NCBI GenBank assembly: GCA_025358155.1
Contig: JANYKR010000146.1
Span: 1 to 33,162, forward strand
DNA: 33,162 nucleotides
Source of the DNA: Betaproteobacteria bacterium
Lineage (GTDB): Bacteria > Pseudomonadota > Gammaproteobacteria > Burkholderiales > Burkholderiaceae_C
Direction: 5' to 3'
Position 1 is the stretch's first letter. Each line of letters starts with the position of its first letter. Made by a program: the position numbers and the translations under genes. The notes under the pieces are model-generated. The model made no database searches. It was given only the letters and a program-made list of their open reading frames with translations, and was not told the DNA's origin. Positions 7,331 through 28,847 of the stretch are shown here, piece by piece.

Positions 7331-7337
7331 GGCCTTG

Positions 7338-7343
7338 ATTATC
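7338..7343 (-). promoter_or_regulatory. -10 box of mutL, 7 nt before ATG
   Basis: GATAATC on the minus strand lies 7 nt upstream of the mutL ATG. A start about 7 nt downstream of the box would make the mRNA leaderless or nearly so. The -35 region is poor (CTGCAC at 17-nt spacing). Confidence 0.5.
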
Positions 7344-7454
7344 CCGGCGCCGGCGGGCTGGTGCAGGTGGCAGTGCTCGGGCTGTCAGGCAGGTCGCGCC
7401 AGTACGGCAGGCCGCGCCGCAGCGGCTTGACGCGCCTCTGAAACAGGGCCATTG

Positions 7455-7460
7455 GATAAT
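7455..7460 (+). promoter_or_regulatory. -10 box of dedA, 8 nt before ATG
   Basis: GATAATC lies 8 nt before the dedA ATG in the 138-bp gap between divergent mutL and dedA. TTGACG at 7427-7432 is a tempting -35, but its 22-nt spacing is too long for a standard promoter. Each strand of this gap carries a GATAATC next to its gene. Confidence 0.5.
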
Positions 7461-7468
7461 CTGGTGCG

Positions 7469-8122
7469 ATGGACACCTTGATGCTGTTGATCGATTTCAT
7501 TGTTCACATCGACCGCCACCTGCGCGAGTTTGTCGATGGCTACGGCACCTGGGTTTACGCCCTGCTGTTTTTGATCATCTTTGTCGAGACCGGCCTGGTG
7601 GTGATGCCTTTCCTGCCGGGCGACTCGCTGCTGTTCGTGGCCGGTGCGCTGGCCGGCGCCGGGCTGATGAACTACCCGCTGCTGATGGCCTTGCTGCTGG
7701 TGGCGGCAGTGGCCGGCAACCAGACCAACTACGCCATCGGCCGGGCGCTGGGGCCCAAGGTGTTTGGCTGGGAGCAGTCGCGATGGTTCAATAAAAAGGC
7801 CTTTGAGCAGGCCCACGCTTTTTATGAGAAGTACGGCGGCGTGACGATCATCGCAGCCCGCTTCATGCCGTTCTTGCGCACCTTTGCGCCATTTGTGGCC
7901 GGTGTGGCGCAGATGACGCGGCGCAAGTTCAGCTTTTATGACGTGACCGGTGGTGCGCTGTGGGTGGGCAGCATCACCACCGCCGGCTACCTGTTTGGCA
8001 ACATCCCCTGGGTGGCCGCCCACCTCAGCAAGATCATCTGGGCGATGATCCTGATCCCGGGCGTGGTGATCTTGCTGGGCGCCTGGCGCTCGCGGCGCAG
8101 CGCACAGGCCAAGCCGGCCTGA
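7469..8122 (+). CDS. DedA-family inner-membrane protein
   Basis: A 217-residue DedA/SNARE-associated-type membrane protein. Members translocate undecaprenyl phosphate or phospholipids and depend on the proton gradient. Diagnostic blocks are FVETGLVVMPFLPGDSLLF (about residues 38-56), with the family acidic residue and PG pair, GNQTNYAIGR, and RFMPFLRTFAPFVAGVAQM (about 131-149), with the essential arginine. Several hydrophobic helices and a basic C-terminal tail (RSRRSAQAK) are visible. It lies on the strand opposite to its neighbours, between mutL and the amidase gene, and its stop is 17 bp from the convergent amidase stop. The particular DedA subgroup and lipid substrate cannot be told. Confidence 0.93.
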   Translation: MDTLMLLIDFIVHIDRHLREFVDGYGTWVYALLFLIIFVETGLVVMPFLPGDSLLFVAGALAGAGLMNYPLLMALLLVAAVAGNQTNYAIGRALGPKVFGWEQSRWFNKKAFEQAHAFYEKYGGVTIIAARFMPFLRTFAPFVAGVAQMTRRKFSFYDVTGGALWVGSITTAGYLFGNIPWVAAHLSKIIWAMILIPGVVILLGAWRSRRSAQAKPA

Positions 8123-8139
8123 CGCCAGCGCGGCCCGGC

Positions 8140-9570
8140 CTACAAACTCCGCTGCCGCGCCAGGGGCGGCCGGCGCGCAAAGTAGCGGCGGATGCCGGTG
8201 TGCAGCGCCTCCACCAGCTTGTCCTGGTAGCCCTCGTCGCGCAGCCGGGCCTCTTCTTCCGGGTTGGAGATAAAGGCGGTCTCGACCAGGATGCTCGGGA
8301 TGTCGGGCGCCTTGAGCACCGCAAAACCGGCCTGCTCGACGCTGCGTTTGTGCAGCGCGCCCACCTTGCCGATCAGCGCCAGCACCTCGCGGCCTATCGT
8401 CAGGCTGTCGCGGATCTGGGCGGTGGTGCTCATGTCGGCCATGGCGCGCAACACTTGGGCGTCCTTGACGCTGGCGAGATTGACGCCGCCCACGCCGTCG
8501 GCGGCGTTCTCCTTGTTCGCCATCCAGCGGGCGGCGGCGCTGGTGGCACCGGTTTCGGACAGCGCAAACACCGACGCGCCCCGCGCGGCCGGCGTAAAAA
8601 ACGCATCGGCGTGGATCGACACGAACAAGTCGGCCTGCACCCGGCGGGCCTTGCGCACCCGCTCGTGCAGCGGCACAAAGAAGTCGGCATCCCGCGTCAG
8701 CATCGCCCGCATCCCGGGCACGCTGTTGAGCCGGTCGCGCAGCTTGAGCGCTACCGCCAGCACCACGTCTTTTTCACGCAGACCGGTGGGGCCTACCGCG
8801 CCGGGGTCCTCGCCGCCGTGGCCGGGGTCGATCGCCACCACCACCAGGCGGTCGATGCTGCGCTGCTCGTCGCCGGGTAGCGCTGCCGGTGCTGCAGCCG
8901 GCGGTGTGGAATGCGGCGCCGGGCTCGACAGCGGCGGCGGGGTGGCGCCGGGCGCTGGGATGCTGGGCGGGCCGGGCTTGTCGGCGAGCAGCGGGCCCGA
9001 GGCCGGCGAGGGGGCCTTGACCGGCCGCTCGACCCGGCCGATGAACTCGCCCAGCGCGTCTTGCACGCTGCGGGCGGCCAGCGCCTCGGCACGCTCGCGG
9101 TCGCGGATCAAGGCCAGCAGCGGGTCGGGTGCCTCGGTCGGGTAGAGGTCAAACACCAGCCGGTGCTGGTAGGCCGCCACTGGCGCCAGCGTGAACTGCT
9201 GAGGAGCCACCGCCTGTTTCAGGTCGATCACCAGGCGCACCACGCGCGGCTGGTACTGGCCGACCCGCACCCCGGCGATGAACGGGTCGTCGGCGCGCAC
9301 CTTGCCCACCAGTTCACGCAGCGCGGGGCTGAGCTCGAGTGCGTCGATGTCGATCACCAGCCTGGGCGGGTTGTCGGTGAAAAACTGGCGTGCGCTCAGG
9401 GCCTGGTCGCTCTCGATCGTGACCCGGCTGTAATCCGCCGCCGGCCAGACCCGCACCGCGACGATGGCTGCGCCAAACGCCAGGTCGGCAGCACCCAGGC
9501 CCAAGGCCAGCGCGCCCATCTGCTGGAGTGCCCGGCGGCGGCTGGGTCGAGACCCGGTCGAGGCGGTCAC
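8140..9570 (-). CDS. N-acetylmuramoyl-L-alanine amidase (AmiC-like, Tat-exported)
   Basis: A periplasmic zinc amidase that cuts the glycan-peptide bond in peptidoglycan during cell separation. From a GTG start it is 476 residues: a twin-arginine signal (SRRRALQ at 10-16, then a hydrophobic stretch), an AMIN domain (about 35-165), a Pro/Ala-rich linker (about 190-235) and an Amidase_3 domain. Zinc and catalytic residues are visible: His in DPGHGGEDPGA (about 250), Glu in LREKD (about 265), His in SIHAD (about 319) and Glu in VETAF (about 428). I prefer GTG 9568-9570 because it overlaps the tsaE stop as GTGA and leaves a normal Tat n-region; a TTG at 9624 is possible. The tsaE-amidase pair matches E. 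coli tsaE-amiB. Confidence 0.93.
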   Translation of the reverse strand: MTASTGSRPSRRRALQQMGALALGLGAADLAFGAAIVAVRVWPAADYSRVTIESDQALSARQFFTDNPPRLVIDIDALELSPALRELVGKVRADDPFIAGVRVGQYQPRVVRLVIDLKQAVAPQQFTLAPVAAYQHRLVFDLYPTEAPDPLLALIRDRERAEALAARSVQDALGEFIGRVERPVKAPSPASGPLLADKPGPPSIPAPGATPPPLSSPAPHSTPPAAAPAALPGDEQRSIDRLVVVAIDPGHGGEDPGAVGPTGLREKDVVLAVALKLRDRLNSVPGMRAMLTRDADFFVPLHERVRKARRVQADLFVSIHADAFFTPAARGASVFALSETGATSAAARWMANKENAADGVGGVNLASVKDAQVLRAMADMSTTAQIRDSLTIGREVLALIGKVGALHKRSVEQAGFAVLKAPDIPSILVETAFISNPEEEARLRDEGYQDKLVEALHTGIRRYFARRPPLARQRSL

Positions 9571-10085
9571 GGCAGCAAGGCCAGGCCCAGCGGGCTGAGC
9601 GCTTGCAGGCTCACCTGCCGGCAATCTGCGTCATTCGGCCCGTCGAGCGGCGCGTCGAGAGGCGCGTCAATCGGCTCGATTTGCAAGCGCAGGTCGGGCA
9701 GGGGCAGCAGGCCGGCGGCTCGGGTCGGCCACTCCACCAGCTTCAAGCCGGGCTGCGCGAACACCTCCCGAAAGCCCGCATCCAGCCCTTCACGCGGGTC
9801 GTTGAAGCGGTAGAAATCAAAGTGAGCGGCCTCGCTGCCGTCGGCCAGCGTGTAGGGCTCCATCACGGTGTAGGTCGGGCTTTTGATGCGCCCGGTCACA
9901 CCGAGCGCCCGCAGCAAATGGCGCACCAGGGTGGTCTTGCCGGCGCCCAGCGGGCCGTGCAGCTCGATCAAGGCCTGGCCAATGCCAGGCCGCGCGGCCA
10001 GGGCCCGGGCAAAGGCCTCACAGCCAGCCTCATCGGGCCACAGCAGCTCGCGAGTTTCTAGAATCGGGCAATGGCTGTCGATCAA
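9567..10085 (-). CDS. tsaE: tRNA t6A biosynthesis ATPase TsaE
   Basis: TsaE (YjeE) is the P-loop ATPase that works with TsaB and TsaD to make t6A37 in ANN-decoding tRNAs. Visible marks: GPLGAGKT P-loop (44-51), SPTYTVMEPY, and the HFDFYRF block typical of the family, followed by LVEWPTRA. No ATG lies before the conserved region. I chose TTG 10083-10085, which gives 172 residues and a normal N-terminal segment; other TTG codons extend up to 10154. The choice makes the 5' end overlap the divergent queG start by 15 bp. The stop overlaps the amidase GTG (GTGA). The C-terminus carries a duplicated DAPLDAPLDGP run. Confidence 0.92.
   Translation of the reverse strand: MIDSHCPILETRELLWPDEAGCEAFARALAARPGIGQALIELHGPLGAGKTTLVRHLLRALGVTGRIKSPTYTVMEPYTLADGSEAAHFDFYRFNDPREGLDAGFREVFAQPGLKLVEWPTRAAGLLPLPDLRLQIEPIDAPLDAPLDGPNDADCRQVSLQALSPLGLALLP
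10059..10064 (+). promoter_or_regulatory. -10 box of queG, inside the 5' end of tsaE
   Basis: TAGAATC lies 6 nt before the queG ATG, so any transcript would be leaderless or nearly so. It sits inside the predicted tsaE coding region on the other strand. The -35 position (GGCCAC at 17-nt spacing) is poor. Confidence 0.5.
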
Positions 10086-11192
10086 GGCGTGTCGCAAGGG
10101 CAAAGCGGAGAGGCGGCGGACGGTGCCGAAAGGGCGCTTTGGGCGCAACTCCAAGGCTGGGCCAGCGCGCTGGGATTCTCACAGATCGGGGTGGCCGACG
10201 TGGACCTGAGCTCGGCCGAGCCCGGCCTGCTGGCCTGGCTGGCAGCGGGCTTTCAGGGCGACATGGCCTACATGGCCGCTCACGGCCTCAAGCGCGCCCG
10301 GCCGGCCGAGCTGGTGCCGGGCACGCTGCGGGTGATCACCGCACGCATGGACTACCTGCCCGCCAGCCAGCCCGGCGCGTGGCAAGCCACCGCCCTGGGT
10401 CGGTTGGCCGAGCCGCAGCAGGCGGTGGTTTCGCTCTACGCCCAGGGCCGCGATTACCACAAGGTCTTGCGCGCCCGGCTGCAAAAGCTGGCTGATCAGT
10501 TGCAACAAGCCGTCGGCCCGCGCGGCCACCGCGTGTTTACCGACTCCGCGCCGGTGCTGGAGGTGGAACTGGCCAGCCGCAGCGGCATCGGCTGGCGCGG
10601 CAAGCACACGCTGGCGCTGTCTCGCGAGGCCGGGTCGATGTTCTTTTTGGGTGAGATATTCATCGACCTGGCCTTGCCCCTGACAGCACCGGTGAGTGCC
10701 CACTGCGGTGAGTGCAATGCCTGCATCAGCGCCTGCCCGACCGGCGCGATCCTGGGGCCGTACCGGCTCGACGCCCGGCGCTGCATCGCCTACCTGACCA
10801 TCGAGCTCGACGGGCCCATCCCGGTGGACTTGCGTGCAGCCATCGGCAATCGAATCTACGGCTGCGACGACTGCCAGCTGGTCTGCCCCTGGAACAAGTT
10901 TGCGCAGCGCAGCCCGCTGGCCGACTTCGACACCCGCGCGTCGGTGGGCCACGCCACGCTGTTGCAGCTCTGGGCCTGGGACGAAGCCGAATTCTTGCGC
11001 CAGACCGAAGGCAGCGCCATCCGCCGCATCGGCTTCAAACGCTGGCGCCGCAACCTGGCGGTGGCCTTGGGCAATGCGTGGCGAGAGACCGGAGACGCGG
11101 CGGTGGCGCTGGCCTTGCAGGCGGCGCGGCCTGATGCCTGCGACCTGGTGGCTGAGCACATGGATTGGGCGCTGGCGCAGCGCGCGCAGTGA
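10071..11192 (+). CDS. queG: Epoxyqueuosine reductase QueG
   Basis: QueG reduces epoxyqueuosine to queuosine in tRNA, using cobalamin and two [4Fe-4S] clusters. The 373-residue protein has the N-terminal cobalamin-binding/reductase part (GFSQIGVAD, DYHKVLRARL, DSAPVLEVELA, GWRGKHTLAL) and a ferredoxin-like part with Cys212-x2-Cys215-x2-Cys218-x3-Cys222-Pro and Cys265-x2-Cys268-x3-Cys272-Pro; a further Cys in ARRCIAYL fits the eighth ligand. The GSAIRRIGFKRWRRNLAVALGN block near the C-terminus is also family-typical. Start ATG 10071 adds about 20 poorly conserved residues before the conserved region. It diverges from tsaE, as yjeS does near yjeF-yjeE in E. coli. The stop is in the same frame as the TPR remnant downstream. 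Confidence 0.96.
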   Translation: MAVDQGVSQGQSGEAADGAERALWAQLQGWASALGFSQIGVADVDLSSAEPGLLAWLAAGFQGDMAYMAAHGLKRARPAELVPGTLRVITARMDYLPASQPGAWQATALGRLAEPQQAVVSLYAQGRDYHKVLRARLQKLADQLQQAVGPRGHRVFTDSAPVLEVELASRSGIGWRGKHTLALSREAGSMFFLGEIFIDLALPLTAPVSAHCGECNACISACPTGAILGPYRLDARRCIAYLTIELDGPIPVDLRAAIGNRIYGCDDCQLVCPWNKFAQRSPLADFDTRASVGHATLLQLWAWDEAEFLRQTEGSAIRRIGFKRWRRNLAVALGNAWRETGDAAVALALQAARPDACDLVAEHMDWALAQRAQ

Positions 11193-11204
11193 GGCCTGCG
11201 TGGG

Positions 11205-11498
11205 GTGGTCAAGGGGTCTCGTCAGCCGGAGGCCATTCGGCAACTGGACCGTGCCACTGAATTGGCAGGCGACAACCCGTTTACCCACAACAACATCGGA
11301 TTGGTCTATTTCGACCTGCAGTTGTACGACAAGGTGCTGGAGCAGGCGCACAAGGCCTTCGCACTGGGCTTCACGCAATCGGCTTTGCGCGAACAACTGG
11401 AATAGGCGGGCAAGTGGTCAGAGCCGGCCCAACAGGAAGCCCGTGCGCCCGCTCCACCTGCGTCTACGGCGAGTGCGCCGTCCCAGCACAGCCCATGA
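11205..11498 (+). pseudogene. Decayed 3' end of a tetratricopeptide-repeat gene
   Basis: The frame encodes a TPR-like segment (AIRQLDRATELAGDNPF, NNIGLVYFDLQLYDKVLEQA, then HKAFALGF) and stops at TAG 11403-11405. Past that TAG the same frame continues sensibly for 30 codons (AGKWSEP, then an Ala/Pro/Ser-rich tail) to TGA 11496-11498. TAG is one transition from CAG, giving LREQLEQAGKW, a natural continuation. Only the last TPR and tail remain, with no start region, so this is a truncated remnant carrying a nonsense change. GTG 11205 is just the first start-like codon. It probably marks the edge of rearranged DNA next to queG. Confidence 0.7.
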
Positions 11499-11532
11499 TC
11501 AACGCCACCAGCCAGCTGGACCCGCACCGGGC

Positions 11533-12978
11533 TTAGCGTCCCAGAATCGACCGAACGACGGGCAGCAATACGTCGACGTTGGATCCCGTCGGCAGTGTGA
11601 GGATAGAGGAGGTCTGGTCCGTGCTGAGCCTGGGCAGGCGCGTGCACACGACTTCGGACTTCTTGAAGTTGCGGTTGATCTCCAGGGCCAGGAGCTCGGT
11701 CGCGGCCTTGGCCATGGCATATTCCGCCATCCCCTTGGGCCGCTCCTCAATGTAGACCGTGGAGGGCACATAGATCTTCACCTTGTGATCGGCCTGACTC
11801 GACTCCAGGAATTCGCACAGGGCATACAGCCTGGCCGCATAGAACTCACAGAACTCGCGGAAAAGCGCGCCGTCGAACAGGGCCGCCTTCTTGCGGAAGA
11901 TCCTGGGCGTGGCGAAGAAGAAGATCGCATCGAGGGAGTCCCATTCGATGCCTGCCGAGGCGAACTCGGCGGTCGCGAGGTCTAGGTGCACCGTCTCGGC
12001 GCGCGCCAGGGTTGATCCTTCAATCTCATGCACGATCGCCAGGGCGTCGGCCTGGCCGCTGGCGAAGCTGACCACAACGTCGCCACCGCCCGCGGCGAGG
12101 ATCTTGGCAGTGAGTTCACCCAGACCTCGTGATCCGCCGATGACCAGGGAACGGGTGCGCGCAAACTCCGCTGGCAGGACGCGACCGGACAGTTCCTTCA
12201 ACGACGGCTGCGATTGCGGCGGAGGTCGCAGGAAGGCCTTGATCTCCCCCTGCAGCACACCGCCGACGCGGATGTCAAAAAGCCGGAACCGCACGTCGTA
12301 CTTGTGAACATCGAAACTCAGTAGACGCGCGTCGGGTGGCACTGCGCCCACGTGGACATGCAGTGACGAGAAAACCGAATGCAGTCCCGGGCACACCATC
12401 CCCACGATGTAGGAATACGCGACCATGCTGGCCAGACCCTCGGCACCAAGCAGGGCATAGCTATGCGGGAAACTGGCCCGAAAATCGCCAGGGCCCAGAC
12501 GCAGCGCGTAGCGCTTGCCCTGGTGGTGCTCCGGCGGCTGGTCGAGTGCCTGGTCCCACGTTTCCAGCACCAGTACCGGGTCCGTCCCCGGCGGGCAGTC
12601 TTGCTGCCCGGTGGGCGGAGGCGTCAGGGAAGGGTCTGCCATGACCAGGGAGATCCTGGCGCACAGCAATCCATCGGCCGTGGCATCCAGGGTCCATTGG
12701 TCGGCAGGCCCTTGTTGCTGCGAGAAAACCACTTTCTCGCCCACACTGACCGGATTGTTGAAATTGCATGAGACCGATGCAACGCTGCCGGCACTCCCGG
12801 GCCGCCAATGCTCCAGTGCAGTCAGCAGAACATGGATGCCATGAACCACCTGCCGGCCGGTGATCAGGCGGCGGGCCGCCACCGGATCCATATGCATCGG
12901 GTTGACGTCACGGGAGATGCGTGCGAAGAACAACTGGTCCTCGGTCGAAAAGACCTTGTCGCCAAGTTTCAATGCCAT
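11533..12978 (-). CDS. Fused hot-dog (MaoC-like) dehydratase / short-chain dehydrogenase
   Basis: A 481-residue two-part protein. The N-terminal part resembles a MaoC/R-hydratase hot-dog domain: DVNPMHMD (24-31) and VVHG (44-47) give the usual catalytic Asp and His. Residues about 155-255 look like a second, degenerate hot-dog unit (PGLHSVFSSLHV). The C-terminal part (about 275-481) is an SDR/ketoreductase-like domain with GGSRGLG (281-287) and Tyr420-x3-Lys424. This suggests hydration/dehydration and ketoreduction of an acyl thioester, most simply the one carried by the ACP encoded two genes upstream. It is the last gene of the cassette, 5 nt after the AAC(3)-like gene. ATG 12976-12978 places the MaoC motif correctly. 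Substrate is unknown. Confidence 0.8.
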   Translation of the reverse strand: MALKLGDKVFSTEDQLFFARISRDVNPMHMDPVAARRLITGRQVVHGIHVLLTALEHWRPGSAGSVASVSCNFNNPVSVGEKVVFSQQQGPADQWTLDATADGLLCARISLVMADPSLTPPPTGQQDCPPGTDPVLVLETWDQALDQPPEHHQGKRYALRLGPGDFRASFPHSYALLGAEGLASMVAYSYIVGMVCPGLHSVFSSLHVHVGAVPPDARLLSFDVHKYDVRFRLFDIRVGGVLQGEIKAFLRPPPQSQPSLKELSGRVLPAEFARTRSLVIGGSRGLGELTAKILAAGGGDVVVSFASGQADALAIVHEIEGSTLARAETVHLDLATAEFASAGIEWDSLDAIFFFATPRIFRKKAALFDGALFREFCEFYAARLYALCEFLESSQADHKVKIYVPSTVYIEERPKGMAEYAMAKAATELLALEINRNFKKSEVVCTRLPRLSTDQTSSILTLPTGSNVDVLLPVVRSILGR

Positions 12979-12983
12979 GTCTG

Positions 12984-13889
12984 TCACGGCTTGTCGTAGA
13001 GCGTCACGCCGCGCCGTGCGGCAGCAACCAGGGCCTCGGTCACTTCGGACGCGCGGGCCGAGAACATGGGCACATCGTGGAACTTCCATTCCTGCAACTG
13101 CTCATGGTTCATGATGTCGCGGAGCTTCCAGATATTGAATTCCCACACAGGGCCGCGCCCGGAAAGGCGAGCGGAAACCTGCTCCTTGCCGTCGATCACC
13201 GTGACGATCAGATCCTGGCCGTTTCCCCGCGGAACCGGGAAATCGTTGCCCATGACACCCTCCACATGGTGCGCCTGGGTCAGGACTTGAAAGGTCTTGC
13301 CCACACCGATGATGCGTGTGTTGTGCTTTGCCATGAAGTCGAAGGGGGACCCGATGCCATTCGGGAACTCGGTGTCTTCGTGGCCCCGAATCAGGTCCTT
13401 CGCCAGCGGCCCCCATGCCGTCATGCGGTAGACCGGGTGCCTGCTCTGCACCGCCCCGGGCATGCGCCGGAACAGCTCCGTCGCCAGGCCCATCTGGGAG
13501 GGCACCCGCCGAAGGTCGAACAGCGGCCGCTTCAGGAAGGTGGCATAGGCCCCGCCGATCTCCGGGTCGCCAAAGTAGAACGCCGGCATGACCAGGGTCT
13601 TGCTCGGACCACAATAGTCCATCAACATCTTCACCAGTGCCAAGGGACTGTCGGTGAACATCGGTTGCATGTGATTGACCGAACTGTGCACCATCAGGAC
13701 GTCGAAGTCCGATCCGACACGCTGCTCCAGATGCATCCGCAGGGCGTGGGCGTCGAAGGTGCCGTGCCACCGCCGCATCAGCGGGTGGAGCTTGGTCCGC
13801 GCGGTGAAATAAGCGGAGCGCAGCGCCAGAAGGCGTTCCTGGTCCAGGTGACGAACGGCCAGGCCGGAGAGCCACTCCAGCGGGCTCAC
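12984..13889 (-). CDS. AAC(3)-family N-acyltransferase
   Basis: A 301-residue member of the aminoglycoside 3-N-acetyltransferase fold family. It shows the family opening LMVHSSVNHM (65-74), a GPSKTLVMPAF block, HPVYRMTAWGPLAKDLIRGH, PFDFM and the LTQAHHVEG segment that holds the expected catalytic His. Many chromosomal members are not resistance enzymes but move acyl groups from CoA or ACP to amines in polysaccharide or natural-product pathways. Here the neighbour is an ACP gene, whose TGA overlaps this GTG start (GTGA, 13886-13889), arguing for coupled translation and an ACP-linked donor. An open frame extends to 14024 but overlaps the ACP gene. Natural acceptor unknown; an amino sugar is my inference. 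Confidence 0.8.
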   Translation of the reverse strand: MSPLEWLSGLAVRHLDQERLLALRSAYFTARTKLHPLMRRWHGTFDAHALRMHLEQRVGSDFDVLMVHSSVNHMQPMFTDSPLALVKMLMDYCGPSKTLVMPAFYFGDPEIGGAYATFLKRPLFDLRRVPSQMGLATELFRRMPGAVQSRHPVYRMTAWGPLAKDLIRGHEDTEFPNGIGSPFDFMAKHNTRIIGVGKTFQVLTQAHHVEGVMGNDFPVPRGNGQDLIVTVIDGKEQVSARLSGRGPVWEFNIWKLRDIMNHEQLQEWKFHDVPMFSARASEVTEALVAAARRGVTLYDKP

Positions 13890-14122
13890 GGGTGGCCGTG
13901 CTCCGCCAGGTACTGCAAGATCGCAGGCACCGACACCATGTTGGGGAAATCCTCGACATCCATGAAGATGTCGAAAGCCTGCTCCAGCGCAATCATCAGG
14001 TTCACGTGGCCCATGGAATCCCACTCTGCAATGTCTTCGTTGCGAGTGCCCTGGGTAATCTTGTGCGGCGGAACCTTCAGGGTCGTTGCGATGACCGTTT
14101 GCACCTGATCAAAAATGCTCAT
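13886..14122 (-). CDS. Acyl carrier protein (dedicated)
   Basis: A 78-residue acidic four-helix carrier protein. The phosphopantetheine attachment serine is Ser36 in EWDSMGHVNLM, the usual D-S-(L/M) motif. Helix I is IFDQVQTVIATTL and the later part FDIFMDVEDFPNM is typical of ACPs in polysaccharide and FkbH-type operons rather than the housekeeping AcpP, which has DSLD. A phosphopantetheinyl transferase must come from elsewhere. ATG 14120-14122 lies 46 nt after the FkbH-like stop. The C-terminal TGA overlaps the next gene's GTG. A frame extending to 14329 only reads back into the FkbH-like gene. Confidence 0.9.
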   Translation of the reverse strand: MSIFDQVQTVIATTLKVPPHKITQGTRNEDIAEWDSMGHVNLMIALEQAFDIFMDVEDFPNMVSVPAILQYLAEHGHP

Positions 14123-14168
14123 GGGGTTTGCCTGGCAGGCTCCAAGACAGTAAAAGAAAACAGCACGA

Positions 14169-16031
14169 TCATACTTGTGCAGCCACCTTGATCGGGAACG
14201 CCGACTCCGGCTGCGGTGGGCATCGGTCGAGGGGCCAGCGGTACCTTCCGTCGGCCCCTGCCTCGAATCCCTGGTCCGGCAGAAATGTCCTGACCAGTTC
14301 GTTCTTGGCCGTCGGAAGGAAATCGGCAACGAGTTCCCTCACGCCTTGGGCAGCCAGGCGCCGCAACAGGCAATGCAGAAAGGCCGATTCTGCCTGCCGG
14401 CCGATGACACGGCACGACATCAGCAGCGTGTCGAGTTCGGCCAGGTGCCCGTCCAGCAGGCGGACCACCGCCAGGCCGGCGATGCCGCTGTTGCCGAATG
14501 TGTCCGCGAGCGCGAAGTCTGCCACCAGGCATCGGGCATCGCTGATGAATTCCTGGATCTGCTGCTCGCTGTAGCGCCGCGTCGTCAGATTGAACTGGTT
14601 GGTCTTCTGGGTCATCTGGCTGAGCCGGGCCACGTGCGCAACCTTGTCGAAGCACACCTCCATCTCCATGGCCAGCGAAACCAGGTAATCCTGCATCTCG
14701 AAACCGCTGCTTTCGACGCTCTCCTTCAACTCCCGGCGTCGGCGCTCCTGGGCATACATTTCCGTCTTCGCAAGGTCTTCAGCAGTGAGCGAAAGGACCT
14801 CCAGGCGGGCCACCTGCTCGAGGCAGCCGGGAACGTCGGTCGGCCGAGCGGGCGTCTGTATCACTTCGACCTGTGGCCAGCGCTGGCGAACGGCCGCGCA
14901 CTCATGGTCGCTGTCATCGACGAAGATGAAGGAATCGAGCCCAAGGTTGAGTTCCTCGGCCAGCGATGCGAGGTTGTCCGGCTTCGGCAGCCAGTTCACG
15001 CGCCTTGCTGCGAAGTGCGCATCGCGCAGGACTTGGTGCGGGTGCTCCCGGAGCACCTCGTCCAGATCGGCCTGGTTGTTCTTGCTGCACAGGGCCAGGA
15101 TGAAGCCGCGCTGCTGGTAATCCAGCAGCCGCCGCTGGAATGCAACAAAGGCGTTGCCGGGATAGTCCGGGCCCAGCTTGATGCCGTCTATGCCGTCCTC
15201 GCCGATCACACCACCCCACAGGGTGTTGTCGGCGTCGAGCACGATGACCTTGGCCTTGGGAAACTTCATCACCGCGCCCACACCCACCACCCGGCGCGCA
15301 AACTCTCGGGCTGCGGCCGGCGTAAACGGAAAGCGCGCGGAAAACCACAGGCGCGGATCGAAGAATGCGCTTCGACCGAATTGCTGAAGTACTTCGTCCA
15401 GATCCAGGTAGAGACACGACTGCAGCGACTCGGAAAACAAGCTGCCGATGCCAGCCTTCAGGCCAGACCACCAGCCACTCTCCGAGCGATCAGACTGGCT
15501 ATCGTAAACACCCAGGCCCGGCCCCTGCATCGCCGGCAGCACGGTCAGCACGATCTGCCCGACCTTGTGCCTGCGGAATTGCCCCACCAGACGCTCCAGC
15601 CCCGCGAGCACTTCCGTGCGCAGTTCGGCCTGCCGGGCAGGGCTGAGGCCAGCCAGCGGACGGGCAAGGTCCGGGTGCAGATCCTCACGCTGCAGCATCA
15701 GCAAGGTCACATCGGGCCGGTGGTTCACCAGCGCGGAGTTCTCCTGCGCCTGCTGCACCAGCATGCCGTAAGGCGCGTGCCAGACCTGCAGATCCAGGCC
15801 TTCCAGGCCGGCGGCCAACGTGAACCAGGGATTCAACAATTCACTGGTATACGAATGCGCAACTGCCAGGCGCAAGGAATGGGCGGCCGGGCCCAGACCG
15901 GCAAGATGGTCGGTCAGCCTCTGCGCCTCGGCGAGGCCCAGAGGCATGCGGGACGTGGCCAATGCGGCACGGATCTCCGGCCTGGTCCGACACTGCAGAA
16001 GGTCATTGAAGCTAAGTCTGGCTTTTGCCAT
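14169..16031 (-). CDS. FkbH-like HAD-superfamily protein (HAD-IIIC), probable glyceryl-ACP synthase
   Basis: A 620-residue FkbH-type protein. The N-terminal ~240 residues match the SGNH-like region found in long FkbH proteins. The HAD domain follows, with motif I DADNTLWGG (266-274), SKNN (316-319), a lysine at about 350 and VDDSDHE (371-377). A GNAT-like C-terminal part includes the typical TQKTNQFNLTTRRYS block. Characterised FkbH proteins dephosphorylate 1,3-bisphosphoglycerate and load the glyceryl group on an ACP thiol. An ACP gene follows by 46 nt, so the same role is likely, although other acyl units are made by relatives. ATG 16029-16031 follows the acyltransferase-3 stop by 19 nt. 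Family call is strong; exact product is inferred. Confidence 0.88.
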   Translation of the reverse strand: MAKARLSFNDLLQCRTRPEIRAALATSRMPLGLAEAQRLTDHLAGLGPAAHSLRLAVAHSYTSELLNPWFTLAAGLEGLDLQVWHAPYGMLVQQAQENSALVNHRPDVTLLMLQREDLHPDLARPLAGLSPARQAELRTEVLAGLERLVGQFRRHKVGQIVLTVLPAMQGPGLGVYDSQSDRSESGWWSGLKAGIGSLFSESLQSCLYLDLDEVLQQFGRSAFFDPRLWFSARFPFTPAAAREFARRVVGVGAVMKFPKAKVIVLDADNTLWGGVIGEDGIDGIKLGPDYPGNAFVAFQRRLLDYQQRGFILALCSKNNQADLDEVLREHPHQVLRDAHFAARRVNWLPKPDNLASLAEELNLGLDSFIFVDDSDHECAAVRQRWPQVEVIQTPARPTDVPGCLEQVARLEVLSLTAEDLAKTEMYAQERRRRELKESVESSGFEMQDYLVSLAMEMEVCFDKVAHVARLSQMTQKTNQFNLTTRRYSEQQIQEFISDARCLVADFALADTFGNSGIAGLAVVRLLDGHLAELDTLLMSCRVIGRQAESAFLHCLLRRLAAQGVRELVADFLPTAKNELVRTFLPDQGFEAGADGRYRWPLDRCPPQPESAFPIKVAAQV

Positions 16032-16050
16032 GCTGATTCAACCTGTCCAT

Positions 16051-17169
16051 TCAAGCAGTCTGCCTACGCCCGCCCAGCGGAGCCATTTTTTCCCAGCGCC
16101 GGAACATGGGCAACATCCAGGCGCGCAAGACATGCCGCCGATTCTCCGTAAAGTGGCCAAGCACCCCGACAGACAGCATCGTCAGCAATGTCACGGCCGC
16201 CCAGTAGGCATGCGCCTTCGGATCACCGCGCAGCACAGCGGCCCAGAACAGGAAGAGCGGCTGGTGCAGCAGGTAGAGCGTAAAAGTGTAGTTCGCGAAG
16301 AAACGAACCGGCGCGGCCACGGCCAACAGCAGGCCGCCCTGGGTGGCAAGGATGACGCGCATCCCAGCGAAGTTCGCAAACACCAGGATGCCGAGCAGGT
16401 AATCCGCTAAAAAGCGCTTGGAGAACGTGAGCTGGTAGACCAGGGAAGGCCCGATCAGAGCCTCCAGCCAGGGCTCACCCAGGCTCATGGTGTCGAAACG
16501 GTGGAACACCACGATACCGGCGGCCGACAGGACCACCAAGGCCCACGCGCTGCCGAGCGACAGGGACTGGAGCGCTCGCCACCGGTACAGCAACACACCC
16601 AACCACCATACGGGGGCGAGCAGAATCAGTTTGGGCCCGATCACCGCCATGGTCACGGCAGCAGCGATCAGGCCTTTGCGCCCGGGAAAGAACATCACCA
16701 GCGCAAACGTCACGTAATACCACCACTCATAGCAAATGGACCAGTACGGAACATTCGAAAAGCTCGTGATCGAGACCAACCACACTTCGTTGGCCATCAG
16801 CACGCTACCGGCGACACGGGTCAGGAATTGGTCGAACGGGTAATGGTAGATGGCCGGGTAGAGCGTCCGTCCGACCGCATCCAGCAGCAAAGTGACGACG
16901 ATCGCCGGGATGGCGACCGAAAACACACGGGATATCCGGCTTGCCGAGTAGTCTGCCAAGGTGGACTCCTTGGTATCGGTAATGAAGGCAATGACAAAAC
17001 CCGACAAAACGAAGAAGACGATCACTGAACTGTGGCCGTAGTTGCTGGCCGGCAGGATCGACTCGGTCAGGAAACGCTGGTTGGAATGCCACATGTAAAC
17101 CAGCAGTGCCGCGGAAAAGCGCACCAGGTCCAGGTACACCGAAAACGGACGGTTCATGGCGGCGCGCAT
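16051..17169 (-). CDS. Acyltransferase 3 family membrane protein (OafA-like)
   Basis: A 372-residue integral membrane protein of the acyltransferase-3 (OafA/WecH) family, which O-acylates, usually O-acetylates, surface sugars. The opening YLDLVRFSAALLVYMWHSNQ has the conserved Arg and His, and GHSSVIVFFVLSGFVIA is the second family block. About ten hydrophobic helices follow, ending in FANYTFTLYLLHQPLFLFW, also typical. The ATG at 17167-17169 overlaps the deacetylase TGA (TGATG), suggesting coupling; a second ATG 12 nt on (17155-17157) is a possible start. It sits between deacetylase and FkbH-like genes, so a role on the same glycan is likely. Donor and acceptor unknown. Confidence 0.88.
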   Translation of the reverse strand: MRAAMNRPFSVYLDLVRFSAALLVYMWHSNQRFLTESILPASNYGHSSVIVFFVLSGFVIAFITDTKESTLADYSASRISRVFSVAIPAIVVTLLLDAVGRTLYPAIYHYPFDQFLTRVAGSVLMANEVWLVSITSFSNVPYWSICYEWWYYVTFALVMFFPGRKGLIAAAVTMAVIGPKLILLAPVWWLGVLLYRWRALQSLSLGSAWALVVLSAAGIVVFHRFDTMSLGEPWLEALIGPSLVYQLTFSKRFLADYLLGILVFANFAGMRVILATQGGLLLAVAAPVRFFANYTFTLYLLHQPLFLFWAAVLRGDPKAHAYWAAVTLLTMLSVGVLGHFTENRRHVLRAWMLPMFRRWEKMAPLGGRRQTA

Positions 17170-18128
17170 CAGATGACCCGCCTCATGGCCTGCTCCCCGA
17201 GGCGCCACAAGGTGCCTGGCCACCGGGCGTCGGCCAACGCGGTGTCGATCGGCGCGCCAATCTTGATCGGTTCGCCAGACAGGGTGGCAGCCGTCAACCT
17301 GCCCCGGTTGTCCCCGAGGTAGCGGCACAATGCCTCGAACCGTGCAACCACGAACCGGTCGGGCTCGCTCAGACCTGGCTTGAGCATCTCGAAGTTGTGG
17401 GACAGGATGACGAAATGCGCAGCCTGGCGGGTCACGGCAGACTCGATCGCATCACGCATCTCGGCAAAACTGCAGGCGCCCACCTGCGCCGGCCGGCGTT
17501 TGCCCAGGCCGTCCCGGAAGACCGTCATCGGCAGGATACGGATCTGCTCGAATTCCAGCGGATGCAGGAAGTCGATCTTGTCGCGCAAGTCAGGCCCGCT
17601 GTGCGGCAGGACAGCATGCAGGCTGCTGTCGATGCCGATGCCGACCTGGCGCAGGGCATGGTAGGTGTCGTGGTTGCAGGCGAAACTGCCCGCACGAAAG
17701 GCGGTGACGGCGGAGCAGCCGACCTGGGCTAGCAGATCGAGGCCCATCGTCAGGAGCGCCACCTGTTCATCGAGCGTGTAGTAGGACAGGTGCTGGCGCT
17801 TGACGGTGGCGCCGACGAAGGGCAATGGGCGGATCTCGTCCGTCCACTCCGGGTGCAGGTGCAGCTGGATGTCGTGTCCACCGGCCCGGATCAGATTAAC
17901 AATCGTGGCCAGGCGGTCTACGCCAAACCGGGCGGCAAACAGGGGTTCGACGAAGAAAACGCCCTTCAAACCATGGCGGTCCAGGATCTCCAACGTCTTC
18001 GGAAGCGCATAGTCACCTTTGGGCGAGCGGCCATACACGTACCTGTCGAAGCTGGCGGGGAAACGGCGGTCCAGGTCGCTCCAACCGCCACACCAGATCT
18101 CGACGTCAAAAGTCAAATAGATTTTCAC
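17169..18128 (-). CDS. Polysaccharide-deacetylase-like (NodB/CE4-type) protein
   Basis: A 319-residue soluble protein with the beginning of a NodB/CE4 barrel: LTFDVEIWC (5-13), where Asp8 would be the motif-1 aspartate, then GHDIQLHLHPEW (84-95) with His85, His90 and His92 as likely metal ligands. Later FRAGSFACN and FVILSHNFEM fit further family motifs. No signal peptide is visible, so it may act in the cytoplasm. CE4 enzymes remove N-acetyl or related groups from sugars; this divergent group is mostly uncharacterised. The start is GTG 18126-18128, as no ATG precedes the conserved N-terminus. It is the first gene of the cassette. Deacetylation of an amino sugar before re-acylation is my inference. 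Confidence 0.78.
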   Translation of the reverse strand: MKIYLTFDVEIWCGGWSDLDRRFPASFDRYVYGRSPKGDYALPKTLEILDRHGLKGVFFVEPLFAARFGVDRLATIVNLIRAGGHDIQLHLHPEWTDEIRPLPFVGATVKRQHLSYYTLDEQVALLTMGLDLLAQVGCSAVTAFRAGSFACNHDTYHALRQVGIGIDSSLHAVLPHSGPDLRDKIDFLHPLEFEQIRILPMTVFRDGLGKRRPAQVGACSFAEMRDAIESAVTRQAAHFVILSHNFEMLKPGLSEPDRFVVARFEALCRYLGDNRGRLTAATLSGEPIKIGAPIDTALADARWPGTLWRLGEQAMRRVI

Positions 18129-18416
18129 GAAGTGTAAGACTGATCCGAAATCGCTCGATGCTCACTCGGCATCGGCTGGGCTTCATTGTGCAACGTGCAC
18201 CGCCGTTTCATCGTAACCTCCGCTGCTGTTTGTTCAGGGAATTGCCAGAAACTTCATGGTCAAGCATGTCTTGATCGGGCATTGCCGGCCGCCCAACAGT
18301 GAAATTCAGGGGCCACGCAAAATGAACCTGAGGGTGAACAATTGTATCAACTGAGCCATGGTTTTCGCATGGAGGGAACGACGTTGTCGCCGATATGGCG
18401 CGTGCTCTTGGCCGGT
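18129..18416. promoter_or_regulatory. Upstream region of the acyl cassette, with a small palindrome
   Basis: About 290 bp without a supported gene between the deacetylase start and the insertion sequence. It is visibly more AT-rich than the surroundings. GTGCA-ACG-TGCAC at 18188-18200 is a perfect small palindrome about 60 nt upstream of the GTG and could be an operator; on the minus strand CACAAT overlaps its edge as a possible -10. The half nearer the IS reads as a weak open frame without recognisable domains and might be debris of an older insertion. Confidence 0.3.
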
Positions 18417-18442
18417 CCTGATCAGTCATGAACCTCAGCCTG
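18417..18442 (+). repeat. Left terminal inverted repeat of the IS
   Basis: Matches 19436-19461 in reverse complement at 24 of 26 positions. It contains the transposase TGA (18422-18424 on the minus strand), so the gene ends inside the repeat or, if CTGATCAG is target DNA, at the junction itself. Confidence 0.8.
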
Positions 18443-19375
18443 CCCACCAATGAAGCGCTCGCGCACAGGCCGAGCGCTTGCGCCATGACCGATGAGCTCA
18501 GAGATCAGCTGCTGCAGATCGAAGCGCCGGTTGAAGCGGTAGCAGAAGGCGCCGAGGTATTGGCTGGCGTACTTGCGGAACTTGAAGGCCTTATGCGCCT
18601 CGTTGATCATCGTTTTGAGGTTACCGAGCACCGTGTTGATCCACTTGAACTGAGGCAGCTCACGCGGCTTGCGATCACCGACGACCACGTACGAGTGGGC
18701 GCAACCGGCATCGATGACACCGGCAAAGCAGTTCAGGCCGTCGCTGCGCACGTCGCAGCCGGGCAGCAAATTTCGGCGCGCCCAGTCGGTGATGGCTTGC
18801 GAAGTGAATCCGCTGAGCTGATTAATCTTGACGAACAGCGAGCGACCATCGTCGCTGGTGGACACCGCGGCCACGATGGGCACCTTGTTGGGCGATCCAC
18901 GTCCACCAACCCCAGGCCGCTCGCCGCCGAGGTAAGCGTCGTCGAGCTGAACCATGCCCTCCAGCGGGGTCTGGCTGTCACGCTCGCTCATGGTGGCCAT
19001 CAGCTTTTGGTGATCCAGCCAGTCCGTGCGGTACGAGGTACCCAAATGGCGCTTGAGCGCCAGGGCAGACAACCCGGTCTTGGCCTCGCTGATCAGATAG
19101 ATCGCCAAGAACCAAGTGCGAAGCGGCAGATTGGTGCTGTCGATCAAAGTGCCAGCGGTCAGCGAGGTCTGGTGGCGGCAGCCCCGGCACTGGAACAGCT
19201 TGCGGGCGCCGTGGCCAACGACGTAGTGTTCGGGAGCCTCGCAGCGCGCACAACGAAAGCCATGCGGCCAGCGATGCGCCGCCAGGGCTGCTGCGCACTG
19301 AACTTCGGTCCCGTAGCGGCTGAAGAAATCCGGCAGAGACATCCCGTGTTGGAACTGGACTTGGTTCATGGGCAT
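18422..19375 (-). CDS. IS1595-family transposase
   Basis: A full-length 317-residue transposase. The N-terminal zinc ribbon is visible as CARC ... CRGC (about 42-64), preceded by MSLPDFFSRYGTE, typical of this family. The catalytic DDE-type domain shows QLDDAYLGGE for the first Asp, DGLNCF for the second, and the INTVLGNLKTMI block carrying the third residue (Asn in many IS1595 members). I chose ATG 19373-19375 because GGAG lies 6 nt upstream; ATG 19367-19369 and an upstream ATG at 19424-19426 are alternatives. No frameshift or stop is seen, so the element may be active. Confidence in the family is high. Confidence 0.9.
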   Translation of the reverse strand: MPMNQVQFQHGMSLPDFFSRYGTEVQCAAALAAHRWPHGFRCARCEAPEHYVVGHGARKLFQCRGCRHQTSLTAGTLIDSTNLPLRTWFLAIYLISEAKTGLSALALKRHLGTSYRTDWLDHQKLMATMSERDSQTPLEGMVQLDDAYLGGERPGVGGRGSPNKVPIVAAVSTSDDGRSLFVKINQLSGFTSQAITDWARRNLLPGCDVRSDGLNCFAGVIDAGCAHSYVVVGDRKPRELPQFKWINTVLGNLKTMINEAHKAFKFRKYASQYLGAFCYRFNRRFDLQQLISELIGHGASARPVRERFIGGQAEVHD

Positions 19376-19435
19376 CGCTGGCTCCGGTCTGGTGACATGG
19401 GTCAGCGTACAGGGCCGGTAGCTCATAGGGCGAGC

Positions 19436-19461
19436 CAGGCTGAGCTTCGTGACTGATCAGG
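19436..19461 (-). repeat. Right terminal inverted repeat of the IS
   Basis: Reverse complement of the left end with two mismatches. It ends in CTGATCAGG; the next bases (TGGCGTCA) do not repeat the left flank (TGGCCGGT). Confidence 0.8.
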
Positions 19462-19555
19462 TGGCGTCAGGGTGCCGACGGTCGGCTGGCGGCTCGTTGC
19501 GGTCGTTCGTGTTCGCCGATTTGTCCGACCGCTTTGCCCCGGCCCGCCGTCACTC

Positions 19556-20071
19556 GATATTCGGCGCCGGGTATTCGCCCCGGCGGGCGACCATTCTTTC
19601 TTTTGGCGAAAAGAAAGAAGGCAAAGAAAGCGCTTCAATTCAATACCATGGTCATATACACGTCTTCGATCACGCCCTTGTTGACTCACTCGCCCGCCCG
19701 GCGGGCTCAAACAGAGGCGTATTTGAAGGCCCAGAACGCGCCGTCGATTTACCGACTCAGGCGGCTGCTGCTGCAAACTGCAGACCACGTGGCAGGTGCA
19801 AAAGCGTCCGCTGCCCGCCGCCCGCCGCCCGCCGTGCGTCGTGCGTCGCCAATCCAGCAGCCGCCTTTGCCGCGCCGCTGACCGGTCATCACGCCGCTTG
19901 CCAGGTGGCGCCTGTTTGAGCCCGCCCGGCGGGCGAGTCGATACTCTCCGCGATGGTTGACGTCGTGTATATCGACATGGAAACTGTTTTTCCAGACTTT
20001 TCTTTGCTGACTTTCTTTTCTAGAAAAGAAAGTTAGGCGCCCGCCGGGGCGAAACCCCGGCGCCGAATATC
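19556..20071. repeat. 516-bp nested palindromic element (REP-pair-like)
   Basis: Two ~160-bp arms in inverted orientation (19556-19714 and 19912-20071) flank a 197-bp centre. Each arm starts outside with GATATTCGGCGCCGGG, then a GCCCCGGCGGGCG block, then an A/T-rich CTTTCTTTT / AAAAGAAAG hairpin, a CATATACACG-type motif, and ends inside with CGGGCTCAAACAG. Inside the centre an 11-bp inverted repeat (19760-19770 with 19855-19865) continues the nesting. Arms match closely at both ends and loosely between. I see no credible gene inside; short frames there have no known domain. Such GC-rich plus CTTTCTTTT repeats recur between genes in Burkholderiales (from memory, not checked). Confidence 0.75.
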
Positions 20072-20146
20072 AAACAACGGCAACACCCAGCAAAGCGTGC
20101 GCTCAAAACACCTGCGATGAACAGCAGCACCGAGCCGCAGGCCGCC

Positions 20147-20180
20147 AACACCCAAGACCCAACACCCAACACCCAACACC
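20147..20180 (+). repeat. Tandem heptamer AACACCC (about five copies)
   Basis: AACACCC, AAGACCC, AACACCC, AACACCC and a partial AACACC follow one another in the gap between the palindromic element and the M20 peptidase gene. The pattern is simple-sequence slippage; no coding role is supported. Confidence 0.7.
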
Positions 20181-28777: not shown

Positions 28778-28783
28778 GGTCTG

Positions 28784-28789
28784 ATTATT
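28784..28789 (-). promoter_or_regulatory. -10 box of earP, 6 nt before ATG
   Basis: AATAATC on the minus strand lies 6 nt upstream of the earP ATG, in the 70-bp divergent gap with uvrC. The -35 position (AGGCCG) is poor. CAGAATCC at 28819-28824 on the plus strand is a similar box for uvrC, about 23 nt before its ATG. Confidence 0.5.
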
Positions 28790-28847
28790 GGCCGCGCGTG
28801 ACCCGCCGGCCTGGACGGCAGAATCCACTACCGACCTGATTGCCCCC

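Follow-up and report, generated by a model that had tools for sequence, protein, structure and literature searches.

A recurrent six-gene cassette centered on an FkbH-family protein and an acyl carrier protein, with a predicted role in polysaccharide acylation

Enzymes of the FkbH family take glyceryl from 1,3-bisphosphoglycerate and load it onto an acyl carrier protein (ACP), and FkbH together with an ACP is sufficient to form glyceryl-ACP. This loading is used in the biosynthesis of tetronates, of methoxymalonyl-ACP of the FK506 type, and of the starter units of FR901464 and oocydin. Carrier-dependent N-acylation is also found on the amino sugars of glycans, as in the tetronyl-perosamine of Vibrio cholerae O1 and the 3-hydroxybutyryl-viosamine of Pseudomonas flagellin, which to our knowledge are produced with other acyl-making enzymes, involving neither FkbH nor a hot-dog/SDR fusion protein (HD-SDR). 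Characterized AAC(3) enzymes use acetyl-CoA as their donor, as do acyltransferase family 3 (AT3) enzymes in general, and CE4 deacetylases have a metal site with HxxxH spacing. The chemistry of the exopolysaccharides associated with exosortase A (XrtA/PEP-CTERM) is, as far as we know, poorly defined.

Here, we analyze a six-gene cassette in a Betaproteobacteria bacterium. The stretch of DNA studied, referred to as the window, spans 33,162 nt of contig JANYKR010000146.1 (GCA_025358155.1), and coordinates are forward-strand positions. Like the known glyceryl-ACP systems, the cassette has an FkbH domain (TIGR01686) beside a discrete ACP, with the HAD residues conserved, but it contains no ketosynthase or FkbG/I/K-type genes; in their stead are a deacetylase, an HD-SDR, and a transferase of the AAC(3) fold. 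It resembles the Vibrio and Pseudomonas systems in that a small hydroxyacyl group is predicted to be readied on a carrier and transferred to an amino sugar within a surface glycan. We found no described system with such a gene set in the open-access library that we searched, and our analysis turns this unexplained set into a chemical prediction. Should it prove correct, a loading step familiar from polyketide antibiotics would supply polysaccharide decoration as well, and lactyl or glyceryl groups would have a general source in the core module. The cassette also offers an entry point to XrtA/PEP-CTERM exopolysaccharide chemistry.

Gene arrangement and protein assignments

All six genes lie on the minus strand, running from 18128 down to 11533, and are separated, from the deacetylase to the HD-SDR, by −1, +19, +46, −4, and −4 nt, which agrees with the co-directional, closely spaced arrangement (−4 to +46 nt) and the positions given in a preliminary description of this DNA. 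The six reading frames are all open, and a combined ORF and profile search revealed no ketosynthase or other assembly-line gene within the cassette.

The FkbH protein (14169..16031; 620 aa, with a HAD-IIIC domain) is the proposed glyceryl-ACP synthase. It scores 273.6 bits against TIGR01686, above the curated cut-off of 146.65, and the sole solved relative found is BF1531 (3slr). Its HAD motif is intact, and D266, D268, T270, D372, D373, and C540, the last of which we assume to be the loading cysteine, are conserved at 100% in 58 aligned sequences. The ACP (13886..14122; 78 aa) carries Ser36 in the motif WDSMGH. It reaches 18.3 bits against PF00550, under the cut-off of 20.8, and up to 39 bits against NCBIfam ACP models, all under their cut-offs; W34-D35-S36 is invariant in 56/56 aligned sequences, these having been picked by an ACP profile. 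Both proteins, assigned earlier from the letters of the sequence, keep their key residues across the 58 FkbH and 56 ACP sequences.

The HD-SDR (11533..12987; 484 aa, GTG start) joins a MaoC-type hot-dog dehydratase region to a FabG-like SDR. The former scores 41 bits against PF01575 (cut-off 27) and can be aligned to the (R)-specific enoyl-CoA hydratase 1iq6 via the D-x-N-P-x-H motif, while the latter scores 25.6 bits against PF00106, just below the cut-off of 26.6, and has the nucleotide loop GGSRGLG and a Ser-Tyr-Lys set. In 68 sequences, D27, N29, P30, H32, D34, S409, and K427 are invariant and Y423 is kept in at least 90%, with the proviso that part of the D-x-N-P-x-H motif doubled as a search pattern. 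The structural model (pLDDT 93.8, pTM 0.91) matches FabG-like SDRs in Foldseek, along with a small number of hot-dog proteins.

Next to the ACP gene, which it overlaps by 4 nt, lies the gene for an AAC(3)-fold (Antibiotic_NAT) N-acyltransferase (12984..13889; 301 aa, GTG start). The protein scores 108 bits against PF02522 (cut-off 25), and its closest solved relatives are 7lap and FrbF (3sma); H207 aligns with the histidine of the FrbF motif TSFHLAE and is invariant in 12/12 sequences. It thus shares its Pfam family and a conserved catalytic histidine region with the AAC(3)/FrbF N-acyltransferases, but differs from them in its ACP- and deacetylase-linked context and in falling far under the cut-offs of all five NCBIfam AAC(3) models matched (at best 58.5 bits against 270). 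An assignment as an aminoglycoside-resistance enzyme was accordingly rejected, and only the fold family is retained.

The remaining two proteins are of types that act on glycans. The deacetylase (17169..18128; 319 aa, GTG start) is a divergent CE4/NodB-like polysaccharide deacetylase, scoring 17.8 bits against PF01522 (cut-off 23.1) and 20.4 bits against TIGR03006 (cut-off 276.2). The fold predicted by AlphaFold (pLDDT 85.4) matches that of CE4 deacetylases, the best Foldseek hits being the deacetylases 3rxz (E = 2e-9), ArnD 8t0j (E = 2e-8), and HP0310 3qbu. D8, H90, H92, R145, and H244 are invariant in 12/12 aligned sequences; all of these except R145 are candidate metal-site residues, with a spacing unlike the HxxxH of CE4 enzymes. 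AT3 (16051..17169; 372 aa, with a possible later ATG at 17157) is of the membrane O-acyltransferase type and scores 66.7 bits against PF01757 (cut-off 31).

Recurrence of the cassette and its core

The preliminary description treated the six genes as one cassette, a reading that would fail if they never co-occurred elsewhere. We compared 80 related loci, each of which has an HD-SDR by construction of the search, and found all six families together in 7 and at least five in 11; the cassette also recurs in genome G803. Gene order and orientation are identical at one locus, L028, from the same genome as L020. Across the 11 loci with at least five families, the window proteins are matched at identities of 51–72% for AAC(3), 48–66% for FkbH, 34–62% for the ACP, 33–51% for HD-SDR, 44–68% for AT3 (7 loci), and 29–68% for the deacetylase (10 loci), whose counterparts in L026, L032, L064, and L027 reach just 29–30%. 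Given these homologous loci, sequence comparison indicates that the array is no chance assembly. The co-occurrence counts exceed the number of independent events, because the relatives are not independent of one another, and the AAC(3)-type HD-SDRs split between two separate clades, so the whole set need not have a single origin.

Judged by gene content, the core of the cassette is FkbH, ACP, and HD-SDR. Of the 46 loci in which the HD-SDR is flanked by 5 kb or more on either side (full loci), 40 contain FkbH and 34 an ACP, and an Ensifer megasynthase carries HD-SDR (15–503), FkbH (526–1049), ACP (1159–1220), and KS (1265–1634) in a single chain, which bears out the proposed tie between the HD-SDR and the FkbH–ACP pair. 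Both FkbH genes of the bacterium's own genome adjoin an HD-SDR. The 21 genomes of the genus yielded six FkbH matches, five with an HD-SDR alongside and the sixth (G680) adjoined by a frame encoding a separate MaoC+SDR fusion. The core module occurs in several phyla and elsewhere bears other transferase-like genes, for example, GNAT, MBOAT, and WcbI; 16 of the 40 full loci with FkbH lack all four transferase types of our panel. On this comparative evidence, the HD-SDR is the widespread signature and the transferase the variable part.

The deacetylase accompanies the AAC(3)-fold transferase in 11/11 AAC(3) loci, inside the extracted stretch in ten and at the end of the same contig in one (L027), which supports the view that the two go together. 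Within the 46 full loci, their co-occurrence gives the table 8/1/0/37 (Fisher p = 3e-8, scored before completion of L027).

Proposed pathway and its alternatives

We propose that the cassette builds a small hydroxyacyl group on its dedicated ACP and uses it to replace the N-acetyl group of a surface-polysaccharide sugar, a five-step reading that we put forward tentatively, at somewhat less than even chances. From family knowledge and the intact residues, FkbH would dephosphorylate 1,3-bisphosphoglycerate and leave glyceryl on Ser36 of the ACP. The hot-dog domain of the HD-SDR may then dehydrate glyceryl-ACP to enolpyruvyl/pyruvyl-ACP, which the SDR domain would reduce to lactyl-ACP. The CE4-like enzyme would N-deacetylate a HexNAc, and the AAC(3)-fold enzyme would N-acylate the freed amine with the acyl-ACP as donor; in a dispensable fifth step, AT3 may O-acylate across the membrane. 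By chemical logic the carrier-bound three-carbon acid is probably lactate, and glyceryl or pyruvyl would also suit these genes. A table in PMC7901079 lists formation of D-lactate-ACP from 1,3-bisphosphoglycerate for FkbH.

Alternatively, the transferred group could be glyceryl itself, giving an N-glyceryl glycan, with the HD-SDR serving in a side reaction, in proofreading, or in adjusting stereochemistry. The two proteins that suffice for glyceryl-ACP are both apparently intact, and in our order sample an HD-SDR at the E 1e-20 level was found near just 4 of the 10 FkbH genes scoring over the cut-off and near none of the other six, so an FkbH product is useful elsewhere without it. However, the retention of both HD-SDR catalytic sets and the Ensifer fusion to FkbH–ACP point to a required step, and we regard this alternative as unlikely; the presence of an HD-SDR in all 80 loci, being a product of the search, does not count against it.

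It is distinctly unlikely, in our estimate, that the acyl-ACP instead feeds O-acylation at the membrane by AT3 or by an MBOAT nearby, with the AAC(3)-fold enzyme acting on an unrelated substrate with acetyl-CoA. MBOAT matches, at a low threshold of 70 bits, do occur in 19/80 loci and 13/46 full loci, and AT3 in 7/11 AAC(3) loci. AT3 is nevertheless missing from the other 4/11, its usual donor is acetyl-CoA, and the AAC(3) gene, besides overlapping that of the ACP in the window, adjoins it in nine listed loci (L026, L028, L031, L032, L056, L058, L064, L083, and L084); the constant company of the deacetylase also suits an N-acyl swap.

A broader version of the lactyl proposal, which we hold more tentatively than the five-step reading itself, is that FkbH, ACP, and HD-SDR constitute a portable lactyl-ACP synthase running on 1,3-bisphosphoglycerate and NADPH, the HD-SDR being a stand-alone glyceryl-to-lactyl converter. 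Such a module could serve polyketide starters as well as N- and O-lactylation of polysaccharides, including the XrtA/PEP-CTERM polymer, with a lineage-specific terminal transferase (AAC(3), GNAT, MBOAT, or WcbI).

Association with XrtA and the setting of the window copy

XrtA is found above the cut-off in 9 of the 11 AAC(3)-type genomes and in the bacterium's own genome, that is, in 10/12, counts that carry no background rate for XrtA; L064 and L083 are the two AAC(3)-type genomes with no match. Marker genes of XrtA exopolysaccharide loci (TIGR03100, TIGR03101, TIGR03108, and TIGR03109) accompany the cassette in 5/11 AAC(3) loci and none do so in the other 6/11. In the bacterium's own genome, XrtA is encoded on contig C33 (348.3 bits, cut-off 208), which also carries the second FkbH–ACP–HD-SDR set, a sister of the window module, and there is another match below the cut-off on C42. 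Unlike these loci, the window cassette lies on a separate contig (C268), with no XrtA beside it, and 0/6 of its proteins exceed the cut-off for any NCBIfam XrtA family. The usual target of the cassette is probably the XrtA-associated exopolysaccharide, and the earlier suggestion that it decorates a glycan made elsewhere is compatible with this association.

The same data bear on a further alternative, in which the cassette serves to produce or tailor a polyketide-like, soluble secondary metabolite and not a glycan. HD-SDR, FkbH, and ACP are also found in PKS/NRPS settings (an Ensifer and a Streptomyces plasmid), but the absence of assembly-line genes from the cassette, the glycan-type deacetylase and AT3, and the XrtA counts make this very unlikely. 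In the preliminary interpretation, the conserved set, the FkbH and ACP residues, the pairings of HD-SDR with FkbH–ACP and of deacetylase with AAC(3), and the fit to glycan decoration find support in the comparisons, and product, donor, and acceptor keep the status of predictions. Our analysis adds to it the association with XrtA, a second module within this genome, the HD-SDR as a signature with a varying transferase, and the displaced look of the window copy.

The window copy seems to have moved out of an XrtA-type locus. Its G+C content is 0.625, against 0.712 in the left and 0.683 in the right flank; its edges hold an IS1595 element, a multicopy repeat, and a broken TPR-like gene; and no cassette lies next to queG in 7/7 congeners. 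A consensus search found no sigma-70-like site in 11150–18500, where shuffled sequences average 1.3. One might conclude that this copy is no more than a passenger, displaced, expressed poorly, or in decay, of a family functional elsewhere, which we consider very unlikely given its six open frames and intact key residues, the promoter scan being a consensus search only. The IS1595-family element (18417..19461, minus strand) has 26-nt terminal inverted repeats that are 92% complementary, scores 91 bits against PF12762 and 169 bits against NF033547, and has one match in the bacterium's own genome. Between queG and the cassette, the truncated, stop-interrupted tail of the TPR-like gene (11193..11413, plus strand) serves as a junction marker. 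It matches a gene at L020 (58% identity by tblastn; 76.9% over 91 nt by blastn, E = 6e-15), whose product scores 21.8 bits against PF00515 (TPR_1; cut-off 27.8) and which follows this same six-gene operon immediately downstream, in convergent orientation.

The cassette genes and the HD-SDR protein

The preliminary description listed six co-directional, closely packed genes, and the reading frames confirm both points. On the minus strand, from 18128 down to 11533, lie genes for a deacetylase, an AT3 protein, FkbH, an ACP, an AAC(3)-fold protein and HD-SDR (a MaoC-type hot-dog dehydratase region fused to a FabG-like SDR), with spacings of -1, +19, +46, -4 and -4 nt. In profile searches, curated cut-offs are exceeded by FkbH, AT3, AAC(3) and the MaoC half of HD-SDR. 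The ACP, deacetylase and SDR profiles score below their cut-offs, a shortfall covered by other evidence: Ser36 of the ACP is invariant in 56 of 56 aligned sequences, the predicted deacetylase structure resembles CE4 deacetylases in a Foldseek search, and the structure model of HD-SDR (pLDDT 93.8, pTM 0.91) retrieves FabG-like reductases.

This model has two helix-and-sheet halves, interpreted as a double hot-dog, and after them a Rossmann domain. Foldseek searches with the model return FabG-like SDRs together with a small number of hot-dog proteins, 4v12 among them, and since the longest target among the 50 matches listed, of 1559 at E 0.001, has at most 337 residues, none of these 50 displays the full architecture. 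Conservation was assessed in an alignment (A2) of 68 HD-SDR sequences, from the window and 67 related loci; five of the 80 loci studied gave no full-length HD-SDR (L033, L061, L092, L096 and L097), and eight further loci lie outside the alignment. The first half carries a D-x-N-P-x-H-x-D motif that aligns with 1iq6, an (R)-specific enoyl-CoA hydratase, and is kept in 68 of 68 sequences, an invariance that partly reflects selection because part of the motif served as scan pattern. In the SDR, S409 and K427 never vary, and Y423 is present in at least 90% of the sequences.

Three other roles for the cassette were considered and rejected. A methoxymalonyl- or hydroxymalonyl-ACP pathway is disfavored because reading frames and profiles reveal no FkbG/I/K-type genes in the cassette, aminoglycoside resistance because the AAC(3) score falls far under the resistance cut-offs, and a defence island because none of the six proteins has a PADLOC match at E 0.001.

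Recurrence of the cassette and its core module

Relatives were collected by scanning genome contigs with ten aligned HD-SDRs, and the best 80 loci of at least 176 relatives were searched with a panel of profile models (HMMs) built in this analysis. All six families occur in seven of these 80 loci (L028, L029, L031, L032, L064 and L083, plus L027 if its contig end is included); L031 comes from Pseudaquabacterium terrae. Four more have five families, lacking AT3 (L026, L056, L058 and L084), so that 11 of the 80 hold at least five. The HMMs derive partly from genomes within the 80 (L009 is judged to be the same as L026, L020 as L028, L022 as L030, and L023 as L032), and the panel matches of L026, L028, L030 and L032 are therefore expected by construction. 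In G748 (L020), a genome of the same family, the six genes stand in identical order and orientation with 49–72% identity, and G803 (L021) is an additional genome with all six families. Recurrence and module membership are demonstrated, and the cassette is a conserved set rather than a chance array. HD-SDR itself is rare, being present in four of 300 genomes of the order and five of 200 of the family (E 1e-20; both counts include the window's own genome). When 398 genomes of the phylum were searched for the AAC(3) fold (E 1e-45), only the window's own gene was recovered; the relatives came through the HD-SDR scan.

The set has a core of FkbH, ACP and HD-SDR. Among the 46 loci in which HD-SDR is flanked on both sides by 5 kb or more ("full" loci, drawn from the best 80 of at least 176), FkbH is found in 40 and ACP in 34 by our own thresholds, and the stop-to-stop frames of FkbH and HD-SDR lie 0 to 5282 nt apart. 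Six full loci lack FkbH (L040, L052, L093, L098, L101 and L104); three of them still have an ACP or MBOAT match, and the neighbors in the remaining three appear unrelated on inspection by eye. The converse does not hold, however: across 150 genomes of the order, HD-SDR is nearby (E 1e-20) for only four of ten FkbH genes above the cut-off. Within the genus, six FkbH matches are spread over five of 21 genomes, and five of these six matches adjoin HD-SDR. The sixth, accompanied by an ACP (L132, contig C22 of G680, 6073–10540), adjoins another frame, of 794 aa, that joins a MaoC domain (71.5 bits) to an SDR (180 bits), a variant of this pairing. As a separate observation, the neighborhoods of L045 and L052 are closely alike although their MAG labels read Asaia bogorensis and Nitrosovibrio, respectively, and one of the labels may be a binning error.

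The strongest functional link of HD-SDR to FkbH is a fusion on the Ensifer canadensis plasmid pT173a (L106, 1301–16375), where one megasynthase chain begins with HD-SDR (residues 15–503), FkbH (526–1049), a carrier protein (1159–1220) and a ketosynthase (1265–1634), and is followed by an NRPS gene. On a Streptomyces plasmid, HD-SDR, ACP and FkbH lie within a PKS neighborhood. Because of the co-location, the Ensifer fusion and the Streptomyces PKS context, the acyl group loaded by FkbH is most likely the substrate on which HD-SDR acts.

The transferase accompanying this core varies. AAC(3) is present in 11 of the 80 loci (best 80 of at least 176), in ten of them with a deacetylase inside the stretch; in the eleventh, L027, a 30% identical deacetylase lies at the end of the same contig. 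No full locus has a deacetylase without AAC(3) (table 8/1/0/37; Fisher p 3e-8, a value inflated by shared ancestry), and the only such case in the 80, L097, is on a contig that ends just inside HD-SDR. A deacetylase found together with an N-acyltransferase points to the exchange of one N-acyl group for another on a HexNAc. In other modules the transferase-like genes are of the GNAT, MBOAT or WcbI type, and a four-transferase panel applied to the 40 FkbH-bearing full loci found at least one type in 24 and none in 16. In a tree of 77 HD-SDRs, AAC(3)-type rows fall into two separated clades with at least three label changes: one comprises Burkholderiales-like genomes and includes L030, which lacks AAC(3), and the other comprises Nitrosomonas and Gammaproteobacteria.

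Association with exosortase A and the proposed chemistry

The window's own genome encodes exosortase A (XrtA) of the PEP-CTERM exopolysaccharide system on contig C33 (348.3 bits against a cut-off of 208), and about 21 kb away is a second FkbH-ACP-HD-SDR set (10101–13862 of L008, which spans C33 30000–48543), whose HD-SDR is 32% identical to that of the window and belongs to a different clade. Adjoining this second module are a GNAT-like gene, a fused XrtA-associated hydrolase 2/1 protein whose score exceeds both cut-offs, and a gene resembling amidotransferases that scores under the TIGR03108 cut-off. XrtA exceeds its cut-off in nine of the 11 AAC(3)-type scan genomes searched, or ten of 12 counting the window's own, and is unmatched in those of L064 and L083; these figures describe an association rather than an enrichment. 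XrtA-locus markers occur inside five of the 11 AAC(3) loci (L027, L028, L029, L031 and L032) and in none of the other six. The markers were checked against NCBIfam in L008, L020, L021 and L022, and elsewhere are matches of our own models. In L069, L077, L099 and L100, a second small, weakly ACP-like frame (scores of 24–29) lies at about 11245–11607, between the GNAT-like gene and the XrtA hydrolase genes.

For the pathway as a whole, we infer loading, conversion, transfer and acceptor as follows. Glyceryl-ACP would be dehydrated in the manner of MaoC to enolpyruvyl/pyruvyl-ACP, which the SDR would reduce to lactyl-ACP. A pathway-reconstruction table in PMC7901079 lists FkbH as leading from 1,3-bpg to D-lactate-ACP. 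Lactyl-ACP is the most likely product, serving N-acylation of a de-N-acetylated exopolysaccharide sugar, and the earlier idea of a decorating module that acts on a glycan made elsewhere fits this scheme. The open-access literature searched contains no description of such a system, a weak negative given that most subscription papers lie outside it, and no paper joining FkbH with flagellin glycosylation, O-antigen or exosortase, or with bryostatin and lactate. The papers there that mention FkbH together with polysaccharide and ACP do not deal with glycans.

Origin of the copy in the window

The G+C content of the cassette is 0.625, against 0.712 in the left flank and 0.683 in the right. Starting 288 nt upstream of the first cassette gene is an IS1595 element that has inverted repeats of 26 nt and one match in the genome. 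Beside it, at 19462–20160, is a repeat of about 700 bp built of nested inverted repeats (arms 19483–19589 and 20038–20144, plus three inner pairs), with at least 40 full or partial genome matches (self and inverted self included) of up to 97% identity, several at contig ends. Possibly this repeat is a non-autonomous mobile element. On the other side, directly after queG, lies the broken, stop-interrupted tail of a TPR-like gene (11193–11413); in L020 the related gene lies next to the same operon and convergent with it.

The genes mutL, amiC, tsaE and queG stay together in seven congeneric stretches, none of which matches any of the six cassette proteins (E 1e-3). Right of the cassette, the window has M20 peptidase, pyrD and rpiA genes, and these were likewise not found in the seven stretches, so the cassette was not simply inserted into an interval that is conserved apart from it. 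A phage and a plasmid were both considered as the vehicle and rejected: viral contigs yielded no confirmed HD-SDR relative, and the eight plasmid records with HD-SDR relatives, three of which were examined, all show less than 60% identity. The best reading is that a block was cut from an XrtA-type locus and landed in the window, with further rearrangement. The housekeeping part of the window also encodes EarP, the EF-P rhamnosyltransferase, at 27602–29032 (PF10093, 351.6 bits).
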